Shown here piece by piece: positions 11,629 through 31,084 of a stretch of 64,000 nucleotides of DNA; position 1 is the stretch's first letter, and the number at the start of each line of letters is the position of its first letter. The DNA comes from Kutzneria chonburiensis (lineage in GTDB: Bacteria; Actinomycetota; Actinomycetes; Mycobacteriales; Pseudonocardiaceae). The stretch is taken from assembly GCF_028622115.1 (NCBI RefSeq), contig NZ_CP097263.1, positions 2,418,001 through 2,482,000 of the forward strand, in the 5' to 3' direction. Below the pieces are notes generated by a model. The model had not been told where the DNA came from, searched no databases, and saw nothing but the letters and a program-made list of their open reading frames with translations. The position numbers and the translations under genes are program-made.

Positions 11629-12498
11629 TCAGTCCCTTCCGGACAGGGTCTCGACGACCTTGAGCAGGGCGGAGTGGTCGAGCGAGCCGTGGCCCATGGC
11701 GCGGGCGGCGGCGATCAGCTGGGCGGTGAGGCCGGCCATCGGCAGCGACACGCCGGCCTGCCGCGCGGCGGCCTGGACGATGCCCATGTCCTTGTGGTGC
11801 AGGTCGATCCGGAAGCCCGGCTGAAAGTTCCGGGCGATCATGGAGTCGCGTTTGAGGTCGAGAATGCGGCTGGCCGCGAGACCGCCGGCAAGAACGTCCA
11901 TACCGGCCTTGGCATCCACGCCGGCTGCTTCCAGCAGCACGATCGCCTCGGCCACCAGCGCGTAGGTGCCGCCGACGACCAGCTGGTTGGCCGCCTTGAC
12001 GACCTGGCCGGCGCCGTGCGGGCCGACGTGCACGATGGTCTTGCCCAGGCTCTCCAGAATCGGCAGCGCCTCGGCGAAGTCCTCGGCCGTGCCACCGACC
12101 ATAATGGACAGTGCGGCGTTCTTGGCCCCGGTCTCGCCGCCGGACACCGGCGCGTCCAGCACCCGGATTCCCTTGCGTGCGGCCGATTCGGCCACGTTCT
12201 TGGACGTCTCGGGGCGGATCGTGCTCATGTCGATCAGCAGCAGTCCGTCGCCGCCGGCCGCGATGACCTCGGTGGTCACCGCCTCGACGTGCTCGTCCTG
12301 CGGCAGCATGGTGATCACGACCTCGGCGCCGGCGATGGCGTCGCCGACGCTGCCGGCCCGCTGCCCACCGGCTTCGGCCAGCGTGGCCATGGCCGGTTCG
12401 GACAGGTCGAAGCCGGTCACGGTGTGGCCGGCGGCCACCAGGTGGCCGGCCATCGGCGAACCCATGATGCCGAGGCCGATGAAGCCGATCTTGCTCAT
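11629..12498 (-). CDS. glxR: 2-hydroxy-3-oxopropionate (tartronate semialdehyde) reductase
   Basis: 289 residues starting MSKIGFIGLGIMGSPMAGHL, the NAD(P)-binding glycine motif of beta-hydroxyacid dehydrogenases. It also has DAPVSGGETGAKNAALSIMVGG (substrate site) and GAGQVVKAANQLVVGG, which holds the catalytic lysine. It reduces tartronate semialdehyde to D-glycerate. The in-frame extension upstream is ignored because the ATG at 12498 overlaps the hyi stop as ATGA, the usual coupling in this operon. Confidence 0.93.
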   Translation of the reverse strand: MSKIGFIGLGIMGSPMAGHLVAAGHTVTGFDLSEPAMATLAEAGGQRAGSVGDAIAGAEVVITMLPQDEHVEAVTTEVIAAGGDGLLLIDMSTIRPETSKNVAESAARKGIRVLDAPVSGGETGAKNAALSIMVGGTAEDFAEALPILESLGKTIVHVGPHGAGQVVKAANQLVVGGTYALVAEAIVLLEAAGVDAKAGMDVLAGGLAASRILDLKRDSMIARNFQPGFRIDLHHKDMGIVQAAARQAGVSLPMAGLTAQLIAAARAMGHGSLDHSALLKVVETLSGRD

Positions 12499-13304
12499 TG
12501 CGCCTCCTGCGGTGCTTGTTGACCGAAGCATTCAAGCCAGCCGAAGCTGTCAGTGGTCGCGCCGGTCGGCCGGTACTCGGCCCCGACGTGGCCGCGATAA
12601 CCGTTGGCGGCCAAGGTGGTCAGGTGTCGCAGCAGCTCCAACTGCCCGCTGCCGGGCTCGCCGCGGCCGGGCGCGTCGGCGAACTGGACGTGGCCGATGC
12701 GCTTGATGTGCTTGCTGGTCACGGAATCGAGGTCGTCGCCGTTGACCGCGAGGTGGTAGAGGTCGCACAGCAGCGCGACGTTGTCCAGCGGTACCAGGTC
12801 GGCCACGGCCAGTGCGTCCGCCGCGGTCAGCAGCGGGTAGTCGGGCGCGCCGGACAGCGGCTCCAGCACGATCGTGCCACCGACCGCCTGCACGGCGGTG
12901 GCCGCCACGGTCAGGTTGGCGGTCGCCAGTTCGTCCTGTTCGGACGGTGTGAAACCGTTGACCCGGTTGCCGTACAAGGCGTTGAAGGTGCGGCAGCCGG
13001 TGCGGCGGGCGATGTCGACGGCGATCTCCACGCTGGCGGTGAACTCGGCCTGGCGGTTGGGCCAGGACACCACGCCGCGGTCGCCGGCCGGCATGTCGCC
13101 GGCGAAGAAGTTGAGGCCGACCAGTTCCGTGCCGGCGTCGGCCAGTGCGTCGACGAACGCGTCGACCTCGGCCGTGGTCGGGCTCGCGGTGTCGAACGGC
13201 CACCAGAACTCCACCGCGTCGAAGCCGGCCTTCTTGGCCGCCGCCGGCCGGTCCAGCAGCGGCAGCTCGGTGAACAGGATCGAGAGGTTGGCGTCGAGAA
13301 GCAC
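12495..13304 (-). CDS. hyi: Hydroxypyruvate isomerase
   Basis: 269 residues with the TIM-barrel xylose-isomerase-like fold: LDANLSILFTELPLLDRP at the start, FDAVEFWWPF, NFFAGDMPAGDRG, LEPLSG, LLCDLYHLAV and HVQFADAPGRGEPG. It interconverts hydroxypyruvate and tartronate semialdehyde, feeding the reductase next door. It is the first gene of the leftward operon. The start is GTG at 13304, with a GGAG site about 7 bases upstream. A TTCCG-N5-CGGAA palindrome lies just upstream of the start. Confidence 0.92.
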   Translation of the reverse strand: MLLDANLSILFTELPLLDRPAAAKKAGFDAVEFWWPFDTASPTTAEVDAFVDALADAGTELVGLNFFAGDMPAGDRGVVSWPNRQAEFTASVEIAVDIARRTGCRTFNALYGNRVNGFTPSEQDELATANLTVAATAVQAVGGTIVLEPLSGAPDYPLLTAADALAVADLVPLDNVALLCDLYHLAVNGDDLDSVTSKHIKRIGHVQFADAPGRGEPGSGQLELLRHLTTLAANGYRGHVGAEYRPTGATTDSFGWLECFGQQAPQEAQ

Positions 13305-13318
13305 CGGATCACTCCGAT

Positions 13319-13333
13319 TTCCGTATCGCGGAA
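13319..13333. promoter_or_regulatory. Candidate IclR-type operator upstream of hyi
   Basis: The palindrome TTCCG-TATCG-CGGAA sits 14-28 bases upstream of the hyi start codon, in the divergent gap between the glyoxylate operon and the HTH regulator. The 5-5-5 layout resembles sites bound by IclR-family regulators, which control allantoin/glyoxylate genes in enterobacteria and Streptomyces (AllR). The same arms recur upstream of the IclR gene at 30269. Binding by any specific protein is inference. Confidence 0.55.
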
Positions 13334-13405
13334 TTACTTTTCCGATTAGTGAGAGAGTAGAGCGCGCCGCTGCGGTCGGTCAACGGTCGGCGCTACGGTT
13401 CGGCG

Positions 13406-13879
13406 GTGGATCTGGAGGCCGAGTTCACCACCGAGCCGTTCCGCGCCGAGGCCGGCGGCGAGCCGCCCGCGCACGCCGTCGAGGCCGCCGAGCAGGCCCG
13501 AAAGGCCGGCCTGGACACGACATTCGGGCCGCTCGGCACCACCGTGCGCGGACCGTCGGACGAGGTGTTGGACGCCCTGCCGGCGATCTTCCGGGCGGCG
13601 CTGACCGGCGGCGCGACCCGCGTGACGTTACGGCTGGGCGTGCCGGGCAGCGACGAAGCGCCCGTGGGTATCGGCTCGCTGGAACGGGTGATCGCCGAGG
13701 TGGAGGCCGAGCTCGGCGGGCCGTTGAGCACGCTGTCGCGGGCCGACAAGCAGCGAGCCGTGCGGCTGCTGGAGGAGCGTGGGGCGTTCGAGGTGCGCAA
13801 GTCCGTGCCCGCGGTGGCCGAAGCGTTGGGGGTCACCCGCTTCACCGTCTACAACTACCTGAACCGGTCGAGCTCGTGA
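13406..13879 (+). CDS. Thiamine-binding-fold (MTH1187/YkoF-like) plus DauR-type HTH protein
   Basis: 157 residues in two parts. Residues 1-75 (DLEAEFTTEPF, then AGLDTTFGPLGTTVRGPSD and GATRVTLRLG) match the small MTH1187/YkoF thiamine-binding ferredoxin-like fold. Residues about 90-155 (LSRADKQRAVRLLEERGAF, then VAEALGVTRFTVYNYLNR) match the C-terminal HTH of YheO/DauR-type regulators. The combination implies a small-molecule-sensing DNA-binding protein. It is divergent from the glyoxylate operon and 55 bases upstream of uraD on the same strand, so it is the prime candidate regulator of the island. Ligand and target are unknown. The GTG start has no clear ribosome site. Confidence 0.7.
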   Translation: MDLEAEFTTEPFRAEAGGEPPAHAVEAAEQARKAGLDTTFGPLGTTVRGPSDEVLDALPAIFRAALTGGATRVTLRLGVPGSDEAPVGIGSLERVIAEVEAELGGPLSTLSRADKQRAVRLLEERGAFEVRKSVPAVAEALGVTRFTVYNYLNRSSS

Positions 13880-13885
13880 TCCACT

Positions 13886-13926
13886 TCAACAAATTGTTGA
13901 CACCGCCGGCCCGGCGCTTCTACCGT
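13886..13926 (+). promoter_or_regulatory. Promoter with overlapping palindrome upstream of uraD
   Basis: A perfect 7-bp inverted repeat, TCAACAA-A-TTGTTGA (13886-13900), runs into TTGACA (13897-13902), an ideal -35 box. TACCGT at 13921-13926 fits the actinobacterial -10 form TANNNT after an 18-base spacer. Transcription would start near 13933-13935, on or beside the uraD ATG at 13935. The palindrome overlaps the -35 box, so a bound protein would block the promoter. Confidence 0.55.
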
Positions 13927-13934
13927 CGCTGCAC

Positions 13935-14369
13935 ATGAACCTCGACGAGGCTTCGCTGACCCAGTGCCTGGCGGTTCCCCGCTGGGTGCGGGCCGTGCTC
14001 GACGGGCAGCCGTACTCCTCGAAGGCCGCACTGTTCGCGGTGGCCGAGCGGGAAGCCGCGACGCTGACCGCCGACGAGGTCGAGCAGGCCCTGGCCGGCC
14101 ACCCGCGCATCGGCGACAAGTCCGGCAGCGCCACCTCACGGGCCGAGCAGTCCGGAGTGGACAACGTCGACCAGTTCGTCGCGGCCAACCGCGAGTACGA
14201 GCAGCGGTTCGGGCGGATCTACCTGGTCTGCGCCGCCGGCCGCGGCGGCGACGAGCTGCTGGCCGATCTCCGTGAGCGGCTGGTGAACACCGACGAGGCC
14301 GAACTGGCCGTGACCGTCCGAGAACTCGGCAAGATCGCGCTGCTGCGCCTGGCGAAGGTCGTCCAATGA
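13935..14369 (+). CDS. uraD: OHCU decarboxylase
   Basis: 144 residues. It decarboxylates 2-oxo-4-hydroxy-4-carboxy-5-ureidoimidazoline to S-allantoin, the last step of the uricase pathway. The signature GHPRIGDKSG (His56 as the catalytic base) and the SRAEQSG segment with the partner glutamate are both present. The length is shorter than animal forms and normal for bacteria. There is no ribosome-binding site, which fits the leaderless promoter described upstream. The stop overlaps the uraH ATG. Confidence 0.93.
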   Translation: MNLDEASLTQCLAVPRWVRAVLDGQPYSSKAALFAVAEREAATLTADEVEQALAGHPRIGDKSGSATSRAEQSGVDNVDQFVAANREYEQRFGRIYLVCAAGRGGDELLADLRERLVNTDEAELAVTVRELGKIALLRLAKVVQ

Positions 14370-14683
14370 TCACCACGCATGTCCTCGACACCACCTCCGG
14401 CCAGCCCGCGCCGGGAGTGTTGGTACGACTGGAATCCGGCGGCCGGATCATCGGCGACGGCGTCACCGACGACGACGGCCGCTGCCGCACGCTCGGCCCC
14501 GAGCACGTCGAGGCCGGCGTCTACCGCCTGGTCTTCGACACCGACACCTACTTCGCGCGGGTCGGACGCGAGGCGTTCTTCCCCGAGGTGACCGTGACGT
14601 TCCGGATCACCGATCCCGACCGGCACCACCACGTGCCGGTCCTGCTGAGCCCGTTTTCCTTCACCAGCTACCGAGGGAGCTGA
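14366..14683 (+). CDS. uraH: 5-hydroxyisourate hydrolase
   Basis: 105 residues of the transthyretin-related family. It hydrolyses 5-hydroxyisourate, the uricase product, to OHCU. It begins ITTHVLDTTSGQPAPGV with the N-terminal catalytic histidine and ends SYRGS, the C-terminal tetrapeptide that separates the enzyme from transthyretin. HHHVPVLLSPF is the third conserved block. It is ATGA-coupled to uraD and followed 5 bases later by urate oxidase. Confidence 0.95.
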   Translation: MITTHVLDTTSGQPAPGVLVRLESGGRIIGDGVTDDDGRCRTLGPEHVEAGVYRLVFDTDTYFARVGREAFFPEVTVTFRITDPDRHHHVPVLLSPFSFTSYRGS

Positions 14684-14688
14684 TCCGC

Positions 14689-15567
14689 GTGGCCGTCCAC
14701 CTTGGCCCCAACCAGTACGGCAAGGCCGAGAACCGGCTGGTGACGGTGTCCCGCAACGGTTCCGTGCACACGCTGCGGGACCTCACCGTCAGCACGTCGC
14801 TGCGCGGCGAGCTCGCCGCCACGCACCTGACCGGCGACAACTCCGGTGTCGTGCCCACCGACACGCAGAAGAACACCGTCTACGCCTTCGCCAAGGAGGC
14901 TCCCGTCGGCGAGATCGAGGAGTTCGCCCTGCGGCTCGGCCGGCACTTCGTCGGCTCGTTCGACCAGATCACCGGCGCCCGGGTGCTCGTCGAGGAGCAC
15001 GGTTGGGGCCGCATTCCGGCCAACTCCCACTCCTTCGTACGGGGATCCGACGAGAAGCGCACCACCGCCGTCACCATCTCCGGCACCGACGCGTGGGTCG
15101 TGTCCGGGCTTCGCGACCTCGTCGTGCTCAAGACCACCGGTTCCGAGTTCCACGGCTATCCGCGGGACAGGTACACCACCCTGCCCGAGACCACCGACCG
15201 GATCCTGGCCACCGCCGTCAGCGCCCAGTGGCGCTTCGCCGGCCTGGACGTCGACTGGGACAAGAGCTTCGCCGAGGCCCGCGACGCCCTGCTCGCCGCC
15301 TTCGCCGACACCCACAGCCTTTCCCTGCAACAGACCCTCTACGCCATGGGCACCGCCGTGATCGAGGCCCGGCCCGAGATCGCCGAGGTGCGGCTGTCGC
15401 TGCCCAACAAGCACCACTTCGTCGTCGACCTGAGCAAGTTCGGGCTGGCCAACGACAACGAGGTCTTCTACGCCGCCGACCGCCCGTACGGGCTCATCGA
15501 GGGCACCGTCCTGCGTGACGACGCCCCCGACGAGGGCCTGGCCTGGCACACCCTCCCGGCGTTCTAG
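14689..15567 (+). CDS. Urate oxidase (uricase)
   Basis: 292 residues. It oxidises urate with O2 to 5-hydroxyisourate and hydrogen peroxide without a cofactor. Seen are the N-terminal LGPNQYGKAENRLVTVSR, THLTGDNSGVVPTDTQKNT with the catalytic Thr of the first T-fold, and near the end LPNKHHFVVDLSKFGL, which holds the conserved NKH. The start is GTG just after a GGGAGCTGA stretch. It ends 4 bases into the convergent DUF899 gene. No catalase or xanthine dehydrogenase is in the window. Confidence 0.95.
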   Translation: MAVHLGPNQYGKAENRLVTVSRNGSVHTLRDLTVSTSLRGELAATHLTGDNSGVVPTDTQKNTVYAFAKEAPVGEIEEFALRLGRHFVGSFDQITGARVLVEEHGWGRIPANSHSFVRGSDEKRTTAVTISGTDAWVVSGLRDLVVLKTTGSEFHGYPRDRYTTLPETTDRILATAVSAQWRFAGLDVDWDKSFAEARDALLAAFADTHSLSLQQTLYAMGTAVIEARPEIAEVRLSLPNKHHFVVDLSKFGLANDNEVFYAADRPYGLIEGTVLRDDAPDEGLAWHTLPAF

Positions 15568-29014: not shown

Positions 29015-30178
29015 CTACCAGGGCAGGCCGACGTAGTTTTCGGCGATGGCGGTCATCGCGGCGCGGCTGCCGGCGGTGTAGCGGAGCTCGGCCAGCTGGA
29101 CCTGGCGCTGGAAGGCGTCGGCGGTCGGGGACACGTGCAGCATCGAGGTCATCTTCCACGAGAAGGCCTCGGCCTTCCACACGCGGTGCAGTGCGGTGTC
29201 CGAATAGGACTCCACCAGGCGGGAGTCGTTGTGCTGCAACAGCTGTGTCACGGCACGCGAGAGCAGGCGGACGTCGGCGACGGCGAGGTTCATGCCCTTG
29301 GCGCCGGTCGGCGGGACGATATGGGCGGCGTCGCCGGCCAGGAAAAGACGACCGTGGCGCATGGGGGTGGCGACGAAGCTGCGCATGGCGGTGATTCCCT
29401 TGTCCAGCAGAGGGCCTTCCAAGACCGGGCTCTCGCCGTCGACGGCCATCCGGGTGTGCAGCTCGGCCCAGATCCGGTCGTCGGGCCACTCCTTGATGTC
29501 CTCGTCCGGCGCGACCTGGAGGTACAGCCGGGTGATCTCGGGCGACCGCATGCTGTACAAGGCGAAACCGCGCTCGTGAAAGGTGTAGGCCAACTCCTCC
29601 CGGGTCGGGGCGGCCTTGGCCAGGATGCCCAACCAGGCGAAGGGATACGTGTGGTCGTAAGCCTCGTGCGGCACGGCTTTCCGGCTCGGGCCATGGAAAC
29701 CGTCGCACCCGGCGATCACGTCGCAGACCAACTCTTGCGGCTGCCCGTCGGCGTCACGAAAGGTGATGCGGGGGCGGTCGGTGTCGATGTCGTGCACGGC
29801 GGTTTCGCTGATGTCGAAGAGGATCTGGCCGCCGTCACGGGTGCGGGCGTCGATGAGGTCCTTCACGACCTCCTGCTGTCCGTACACGGTGACGTTGCGG
29901 CCGACGAGCTCCTCGAACGCGATGCGGTGGTCGGCGCCGTCGAAACGCAGCGAGATGCCGCCGTGCACCAGGCCCTCGCGGTCCATCCGCTCCCCCAGGC
30001 CGACCTCGCGCAGCAGGTCGGTGGTGGTGTTCTCGAGCACGCCGGCCCGCACGCGCTGCCGCACGTAGTCCTCGCCGCGCTCCTCGAGCACCACCGACTC
30101 GACGCCCTCGAGATGCAGCAGGTGCGACAACAGCAGCCCCGCCGGGCCGGCCCCGATGATCCCGACCTGTGTGCGCAC
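29015..30178 (-). CDS. pobA: 4-hydroxybenzoate 3-monooxygenase
   Basis: 387 residues from GTG 30178, with a GGAGGAAGG ribosome site. It is an FAD enzyme that converts 4-hydroxybenzoate to protocatechuate. GIIGAGPAGLLLSHLLH is the FAD site, DVIAGCDGFHG the DG motif and LAGDAAHIVPPTGAKGMNLA the GD motif. RVRAGVLEN and the whole length match PobA closely. It is divergent from an IclR-type regulator, the common arrangement for pob genes. No protocatechuate ring-cleavage genes are in the window. Confidence 0.93.
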   Translation of the reverse strand: MRTQVGIIGAGPAGLLLSHLLHLEGVESVVLEERGEDYVRQRVRAGVLENTTTDLLREVGLGERMDREGLVHGGISLRFDGADHRIAFEELVGRNVTVYGQQEVVKDLIDARTRDGGQILFDISETAVHDIDTDRPRITFRDADGQPQELVCDVIAGCDGFHGPSRKAVPHEAYDHTYPFAWLGILAKAAPTREELAYTFHERGFALYSMRSPEITRLYLQVAPDEDIKEWPDDRIWAELHTRMAVDGESPVLEGPLLDKGITAMRSFVATPMRHGRLFLAGDAAHIVPPTGAKGMNLAVADVRLLSRAVTQLLQHNDSRLVESYSDTALHRVWKAEAFSWKMTSMLHVSPTADAFQRQVQLAELRYTAGSRAAMTAIAENYVGLPW

Positions 30179-30208
30179 GGTGACCTTCCTCCCTGGTTGC
30201 GAGCGTCC

Positions 30209-30225
30209 AGCATGGAAGCCATGCT
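30209..30225. promoter_or_regulatory. Palindrome in the pobA/iclR gap
   Basis: AGCATGG-AAG-CCATGCT is a perfect 7-bp inverted repeat with a 3-base centre, located 31-47 bases upstream of the pobA start codon. It could be an operator for pobA. It differs from the IclR-type palindrome 20 bases further on. Confidence 0.4.
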
Positions 30226-30244
30226 CGGTCCGGTCACCGCAGGT

Positions 30245-30259
30245 TTCCGATGGACGGAA
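30245..30259. promoter_or_regulatory. Candidate IclR-type operator upstream of iclR
   Basis: TTCCG-ATGGA-CGGAA lies 9 bases upstream of the IclR-family start codon. It has the same arms and spacing as the site upstream of hyi. It would fit autoregulation, and control of divergent pobA. Confidence 0.55.
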
Positions 30260-30268
30260 GGGTAGCTC

Positions 30269-31084
30269 GTGCCGCCTCGCACCACCGATCCCGTCAGCGT
30301 CGGGGCCCGCCTGATCGCCCTGCTGGACGCCTTCACGGCCCGGGCGTCGGCGCTGACGCTGTCCGAGCTCAGCCGCCGGACCGGGCTGCCGCTGACGTCC
30401 ACGCACCGGCTCGTCGGCGAACTGGCCGCGGGCGGGCTCCTGGAGCGCGGCGACGACGGCCGGTACCGGATCGGGTTGCGACTGTGGGAGATCGCGTCAC
30501 TGGCGTCGCGCGGCATCGGCCTGCGCGAGAGCGCGATGCCCTTCCTGGAGGACCTGTACGAGGCGACGCACCAGCACGTGCAGCTCGCCGTGCTGGAGGG
30601 GCACGAGGTGCTGTACCTGGAGCGAATCTCCGGCCGCGACGCCGTGTCGATCATCTCGCGGGTCGGCGGGCGGCTGGCCCCGCACGCCACCGGCGTCGGC
30701 GTGGTGCTGCTGGCCCACGCCCCGGTCGAGGTGCAGGACGCGATCCTGGCGGCGCCGCTGCGCCGGTTCACGCCCCGGACCGAGACCAGGCCATCGGAGC
30801 TCCGACGAATCCTGGCCGACGTCCGCCGCGACGGCTACGCGATCACCGACGGCACCATCGAGACGGTGGCCTTGTCGGTCGCCGCACCCGTGCGAGGCCC
30901 GGACGATTCCGTGGTCGCGGCGATCTCGGTGGTGGTGCCGGCGGAGTCCGCCCAGCCGCGTGAGATAGTTCCGGCGGTGATCGCCGCCGCCCGCGGCATT
31001 TCCCGGGTACTGGGCGCACCGAGCAGCCAGCGACTGGCGCGCACCGTACGCCGTGAGACCCACCGCCGGGATCTCCCATTGTGA
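30269..31084 (+). CDS. IclR-family transcriptional regulator (PobR-like)
   Basis: 271 residues from GTG 30269. The N-terminal winged HTH has ALTLSELSRRTGLPLTSTHR. The effector domain has ESAMPFLEDLYEATHQHVQLAV, YLERISGRDAVSI, PHATGVGVVLLAHAP and IAAAR. Divergence from pobA makes 4-hydroxybenzoate its likely effector, activating or repressing pobA. It may also touch the hyi promoter through the shared palindrome, but that is inference. Confidence 0.88.
   Translation: MPPRTTDPVSVGARLIALLDAFTARASALTLSELSRRTGLPLTSTHRLVGELAAGGLLERGDDGRYRIGLRLWEIASLASRGIGLRESAMPFLEDLYEATHQHVQLAVLEGHEVLYLERISGRDAVSIISRVGGRLAPHATGVGVVLLAHAPVEVQDAILAAPLRRFTPRTETRPSELRRILADVRRDGYAITDGTIETVALSVAAPVRGPDDSVVAAISVVVPAESAQPREIVPAVIAAARGISRVLGAPSSQRLARTVRRETHRRDLPL

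Follow-up and report, generated by a model that had tools for sequence, protein, structure and literature searches.

The gene at 13406-13879 of the window (i.e., the whole analysed stretch of 64,000 nucleotides from Kutzneria chonburiensis) very probably encodes a specific regulator of urate breakdown. It belongs to a group, called A-B here, in which a small domain or protein A with the TBP/MTH1187-type fold is fused to, or encoded beside, a helix-turn-helix (HTH) domain or protein B carrying HTH_22. Taken as a whole, the observations are read with high confidence as those of a dedicated one-component regulator of urate breakdown, in which A senses, HTH_22 binds the palindrome TTCAACAAANTGTTGAC, and the protein most likely acts as a repressor rather than an activator. 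That is to say, the A part would sense a small molecule, the HTH_22 part would bind TTCAACAAANTGTTGAC over the -35 region of the uraD-uraH-uox promoter, and the bound repressor would block RNA polymerase until the A domain is occupied by a metabolite of the purine pathway. Most relatives would have this regulator as two translationally coupled proteins, A and B. Domains, fold, coupling, two-gene ancestry, repeated fusion, and the operator with its close co-occurrence with the regulator are computed results, and from these the binding of A-B to TTCAACAAANTGTTGAC, repression, ligand binding by A and the identity of the ligand are inferred.

First of all, the open reading frame at 13406-13879 is a TBP-type fold fused to HTH_22, and its parts are as follows.

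13406-13879, plus strand: fused regulator gene, GTG start, 157 aa, with the A domain at about residues 1-80, a linker at about 81-91 and HTH_22 at 92-153
13406-13645, plus strand: A domain, TBP/MTH1187-type fold, with the subfamily signature EFTTEPF...H...GPLGT
13679-13864, plus strand: HTH_22 (PF13309) DNA-binding domain, residues 92-153, from Pfam

In the Pfam search, HTH_22 (PF13309) was matched at residues 92-153 with 78.1 bits against a cut-off of 29.6 (E 5e-22), and Thiamine_BP (PF01910) at residues 25-77 with 26.8 bits against a cut-off of 24.9 (E 5e-6). The fused protein is a member of PF01910 by the curated cut-off with a margin of about 2 bits, and an A protein from Streptomyces, with 20.6 bits, lies slightly under it. 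Since the PF01910 match is near the cut-off, the fold was checked in two independent ways. The profile of the A domain matched the solved structures 1YQH (7.5e-7), TM0486/1VK8 (2.4e-5) and MTH1187/1LXN (0.0027), as well as MJ1052. The AlphaFold2 model of the fused protein (pLDDT 92.9) has the order beta-alpha-beta-beta-alpha-beta followed by four helices, and the top 14 Foldseek matches of this model in the PDB are MTH1187/DUF77 structures only; the A domain is thus predicted to have the ferredoxin-like fold of MTH1187/TM0486. The first-pass annotation had likened the first half to MTH1187/YkoF proteins and the second to the HTH of YheO/DauR, and both likenesses are borne out: the domain search gives Thiamine_BP and HTH_22, and the predicted structure has the TBP fold. 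No PAS family, as would be expected of a YheO-like sensor, was matched by Pfam in the fused protein or in B.

The relatives compared were 80 genome loci and 150 genomes of the family. The fused build, of about 155-165 aa, is found in Kutzneria, Amycolatopsis, Prauserella, some Nocardioides and Phycicoccus. The majority of actinobacteria (Saccharopolyspora, Nocardia, Kribbella, Tsukamurella, Streptomyces and others) have the split build with two genes, in which A is about 80 aa long and B, of about 115-145 aa, consists of HTH_22 and a small N-terminal domain of its own. At 36 of the 46 split loci, B begins before A has ended, with an overlap of 4-11 nt (offset -4, -8 or -11), as is the case for genes coupled in translation. 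On the tree of A plus HTH, the fused state corresponds to four changes, three of which are forced by well-supported branches; the ancestral form is two overlapping genes, fused about four times. Independent fusions join the identical two partners, which argues that A and B act together. Moreover, the N-terminal domain of B has been lost in three of the four fusions and kept in Actinopolyspora mzabensis; A. alba, closely related to it, still carries A and B as separate genes. This domain may dock A and become dispensable once the two are fused. Its sequence gave no fold match in the PDB and no known relative in the Pfam and fold searches; the proposal that it is a PAS remnant was given up for want of support from these same searches. 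The gap of about 150 bp between A and B in many relatives was at one time considered a case of recoding or an intron, an explanation that was also rejected, as the gap is the N-terminal domain of B in another frame, whose start codon usually overlaps the end of A.

Kutzneria-group genomes of 85-90% identity, and others far beyond this group, have homologues that share its start and its order of domains, so the fusion is real. That it might be a chance frameshift product or an annotation artefact of two genes is extremely improbable. Such an origin could be suggested by one genome of the same genus, G142 (G142:C1:11297477-11298004, locus L255), where the gene is read as two overlapping frames, from a sequencing error or a recent re-split. 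Against it stand the four other Kutzneria-group genomes and the more than 40 Amycolatopsis/Prauserella loci where a single frame is open throughout, the clean absence of the N-terminal part of B, and the parallel fusions. A longer fused regulator, of 226 aa with a linker of repeated GEPGHVAAA-type units, is encoded in Amycolatopsis sp. NBRC 101858 (L045:5995-6672).

The fused gene is flanked by the divergent hyi (101 bp away) and by uraD (55 bp away), as listed below.

12495-13304, minus strand: hyi, divergent neighbour, with no candidate operator in its upstream gap in this genome
13935-14369, plus strand: uraD, OHCU decarboxylase (PF09349), first gene of the predicted target operon
14366-14683, plus strand: uraH, 5-hydroxyisourate hydrolase (PF00576)
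14689-15567, plus strand: uox, urate oxidase (PF01014)

On one side, the island comprises allantoicase, allantoinase, glycerate kinase, gcl, tartronate-semialdehyde reductase (glxR) and hyi, and on the other uraD, uraH and uricase, so that the gene lies, as had been noted at first, in the divergent gap between the two halves of the pathway, with hyi on the minus strand and uraD on the plus strand. In nearly all actinomycete loci uraD-uraH-uox adjoins A-B, on the same strand or, in Tsukamurella, divergently. The other flank varies (gcl, allB, alc or none of these), and at many loci of Amycolatopsis, Kribbella and Nocardioides the cassette has no gcl next to it.

The stretch that follows B or the fused gene and precedes uraD was compared across all loci and showed a single conserved palindrome, TTCAACAAANTGTTGAC, which is present with at most one mismatch in 108 of the 110 A-B loci, near-duplicate species included. 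In the window it takes the following form.

13885-13901, plus strand: candidate operator TTCAACAAATTGTTGAC, palindrome TCAACA-N3-TGTTGA, from the cross-locus comparison
13897-13902, plus strand: predicted -35 hexamer TTGACA, overlapping the candidate operator
13921-13926, plus strand: predicted -10-like TACCGT, 18 nt after the -35 hexamer, with a predicted transcript start at about the uraD ATG (13935)

No second copy of the candidate operator was found in the window at up to three mismatches. Of the two stretches that had been proposed earlier for DNA binding, 13880-13934 contains the candidate operator and 13305-13405 contains none.

The right end of TTCAACAAANTGTTGAC is the predicted -35 hexamer itself, whose TTGAC is invariant in the set, and TANNNT follows 17-18 nt downstream in 42 of 74 loci, with 2.4 expected. 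An operator overlapping the -35 hexamer fits a repressor and also a class-II activator. The regulator could thus be an activator that sits at about -40 and recruits RNA polymerase with its ligand bound, as the centre of the palindrome lies 3-4 nt upstream of the -35 hexamer. This is nevertheless unlikely, because a -35 near consensus, with TANNNT at 17-18 nt in more than half of the loci, is that of a promoter needing little help, and because TTGAC itself belongs to the palindrome. Repression is the preferred mode of action.

Whether the site follows the regulator could be examined because the uricase gene is present in 125 of the 150 genomes of the family sample, many of which are without A-B. 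For this purpose, uricase loci were retrieved both from genomes that have A-B and from genomes that lack it. Over all uricase loci compared, the site is present at 47 of 47 with A-B and at 0 of 48 without it, 23 of the latter 48 being from the same family. When only the newly fetched A-B genomes are counted, the exact core is present in 12 of 12 against 0 of 48 without A-B even at two mismatches (Fisher 7e-13), and among 346 genomes of the class the exact 17-mer occurs in 30 of 33 with A against 2 of 313 without (Fisher 1.7e-37), values which overstate independence since the genomes are related. One of the three exceptions bearing A (L124) has the site with one mismatch. Restriction to the same family gave a Fisher value of 1.2e-9. 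At three of the loci without A-B (L224, L231 and L241) the gene order is unchanged, only the regulator is missing, and there is no site. The fair test, given the relatedness, is the tree-based one, which is small: on the uricase tree of 95 loci, regulator and site switch at the same 7 places, and all 5 well-supported independent pairs agree (p 0.0625; 7 pairs when all branches are counted). The earlier proposal of a likely regulator of the purine island is strengthened by this co-occurrence of the candidate operator with the gene.

The clearest single example is a genome (G092) in which the fused A-B lies 1.6 Mb from the uricase operon, at a locus (L160) with no urate genes within about 6 kb, and the operon (L243) has kept the exact site, which argues that the regulator acts in trans. 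At three further loci (L033, L056 and L364) A-B is several kb off and the site stays with uraD. It is quite improbable that the palindrome serves a different regulator that happens to accompany the A-B cassette. Further factors in the island are suggested by a second palindrome pair (CGGAATTACTTTTCCG, 13329-13344), and an unseen regulator might in principle show the same co-occurrence. However, site and A-B change jointly at the 7 places of the uricase tree, the genome with the unlinked A-B among them, and A-B contains the sole HTH protein that constantly adjoins the site.

In the hyi-regulator gap, window 13319-13344 holds two overlapping inverted repeats, TTCCGTATCGCGGAA and CGGAATTACTTTTCCG, and CGGAA-type words follow the uraD -10 at loci of Nocardioides, Kribbella and Nocardia; these repeats and words may be sites of a second regulator, perhaps of IclR/AllR type. 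Elsewhere, at 30269-31084, an IclR-family regulator adjoins an FAD-dependent hydroxylase (29015-30406, minus strand); the two probably form a PobR/pobA pair that has no connection with the purine island.

As regards the predicted regulon, a pattern search found the exact core once in the 10.4 Mb of the host and 1-3 times per genome in 20 A-B genomes, the reversed control pattern giving 0 in all of them. In Streptomyces, a catalase gene lies downstream of the second site in 12 of the 13 regions read (L352 and L365 included), two of the catalases being confirmed by Pfam and the thirteenth region being left unresolved by the ORF filter. Uricase produces hydrogen peroxide, so an operator common to uricase and catalase makes sense, and uricase is predicted to be co-regulated in Streptomyces with a peroxide-removing catalase. 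Extra sites were also found upstream of allantoinase (allB) in Saccharopolyspora and Actinopolyspora types, and in three single genomes: in G234 upstream of a molybdo-flavoprotein xanthine-dehydrogenase-like gene, xdh; in G013 within the gap that separates hyi from the regulator; and in G012 between genes for a dicarboxylate symporter and a glxR-like protein. The genes with extra sites (catalase, allB and xdh) form a set of coherent function.

These positions bear on the ligand. The first-pass annotation had raised thiamine as an attractive but unproved idea; on this reading, A would sense thiamine or thiamine phosphate and tie the breakdown of urate and glyoxylate to the thiamine supply, as Gcl needs thiamine diphosphate and gcl is present in the host island. 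TM0486, a homologue of A with the fold of A, is cited in PMC6393860 as reported to be a thiamin-binding protein, so that thiamine is possible by homology alone. The indirect evidence points against it. The gene gcl is an inconstant neighbour of the cassette, and uraD-uraH-uox a nearly constant one; the genes with candidate operators are uraD, uox, allB, xdh and catalase, and among the places read no such site is seen at thiamine genes or ahead of gcl. Moreover, the A subfamily has in the alignment its own invariant residues (EFTxEPF, H and GP), and A varies at the Glu position of the 'TxxEG' stretch, which three of four solved relatives in the alignment retain (1LXN has Glu-Ala). Sensing of thiamine is thus improbable, and the link to Gcl is unsupported; a ligand from the purine pathway is likelier, urate or its product being the likeliest by the logic of the regulon.

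A-B pairs also occur outside urate loci. In Acidimicrobiia-like genomes (a class guessed from sequence; family code f30; L143-L151 and L157), the pairs have no urate genes beside them and adjoin a HAD hydrolase, often near a pantothenate-kinase-like gene and an M20-type hydrolase, and the candidate urate operator TTCAACAAANTGTTGAC was looked for near these pairs and not found. Therefore, the family as a whole is not specific to urate and has at least one other role. Two metagenome-assembled genomes with no urate oxidase nearby also have A next to B, but the order of the two is reversed at L058, and at L066 they are encoded on opposite strands. At L066, B is preceded by a degenerate TTCAACAGAATGTCAACA, and the locus has a gene resembling allantoinase. 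Weak A-like proteins of 37-46 bits, with no HTH_22 partner, lie within 1-3 kb of uricase at loci of another class (family code f19; L261, L262, L264, L266 and L270), so the association of a TBP-like protein with urate oxidase may be a wider one.

It is possible, and put forward here tentatively, that A-B is an undescribed regulator family in which a TBP fold was turned into a sensor of a purine-breakdown metabolite, born as coupled genes with the N-terminal domain of B as docking part, repeatedly fused with the usual loss of that part, jointly controlling uricase and, in Streptomyces, catalase, and, in the Acidimicrobiia-like pairs, using another operator and serving another pathway. If true, uric-acid breakdown would gain the local regulator and operator that it has been missing in much of Actinobacteria, including Streptomyces, Nocardia and Amycolatopsis, and a vitamin-binding fold would have been reused as a sensor of transcription. 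The simple 17-bp site and the predicted uricase-catalase pairing of Streptomyces are at hand for testing, and a ligand-responsive urate switch would be a useful biosensor part.

No published account of a TBP-HTH_22 regulator was found in the open-access literature, in keeping with the initial remark that no characterised regulator of urate or allantoin breakdown has this build. The A domain shares fold and homology with the MTH1187/YkoF proteins (PF01910; TM0486, MTH1187, MJ1052 and 1YQH), from which it differs in its invariant residues and in being fused or coupled to an HTH protein. With YheO/DauR (PAS + HTH_22) A-B has HTH_22 in common, whereas its sensor is the TBP fold and not a YheO-like PAS domain. 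HucR, of the MarR family, is a urate-responsive, dedicated regulator of uricase; its fold is that of MarR, and that of A-B is TBP-HTH_22. AllR, the allantoin repressor of E. coli, likewise exerts local control over purine-breakdown genes, but it belongs to another protein family (IclR), and its operator KTTGGAAWAWTWTTCCAAC (PMC8222616) is unlike TTCAACAAANTGTTGAC. In S. coelicolor, SCO6207 and SCO6208 are guessed from gene order to be A and B. The redox system HbpS-SenS-SenR of this species is reported to lower the expression of hpxQ-hpxT-hpxO (i.e., uraD-uraH-uox) (PMC4991794); it is a global two-component system with a different predicted site and would be an additional layer over the proposed local regulator A-B, read as a one-component regulator with an unusual sensor and an unusual two-gene history.
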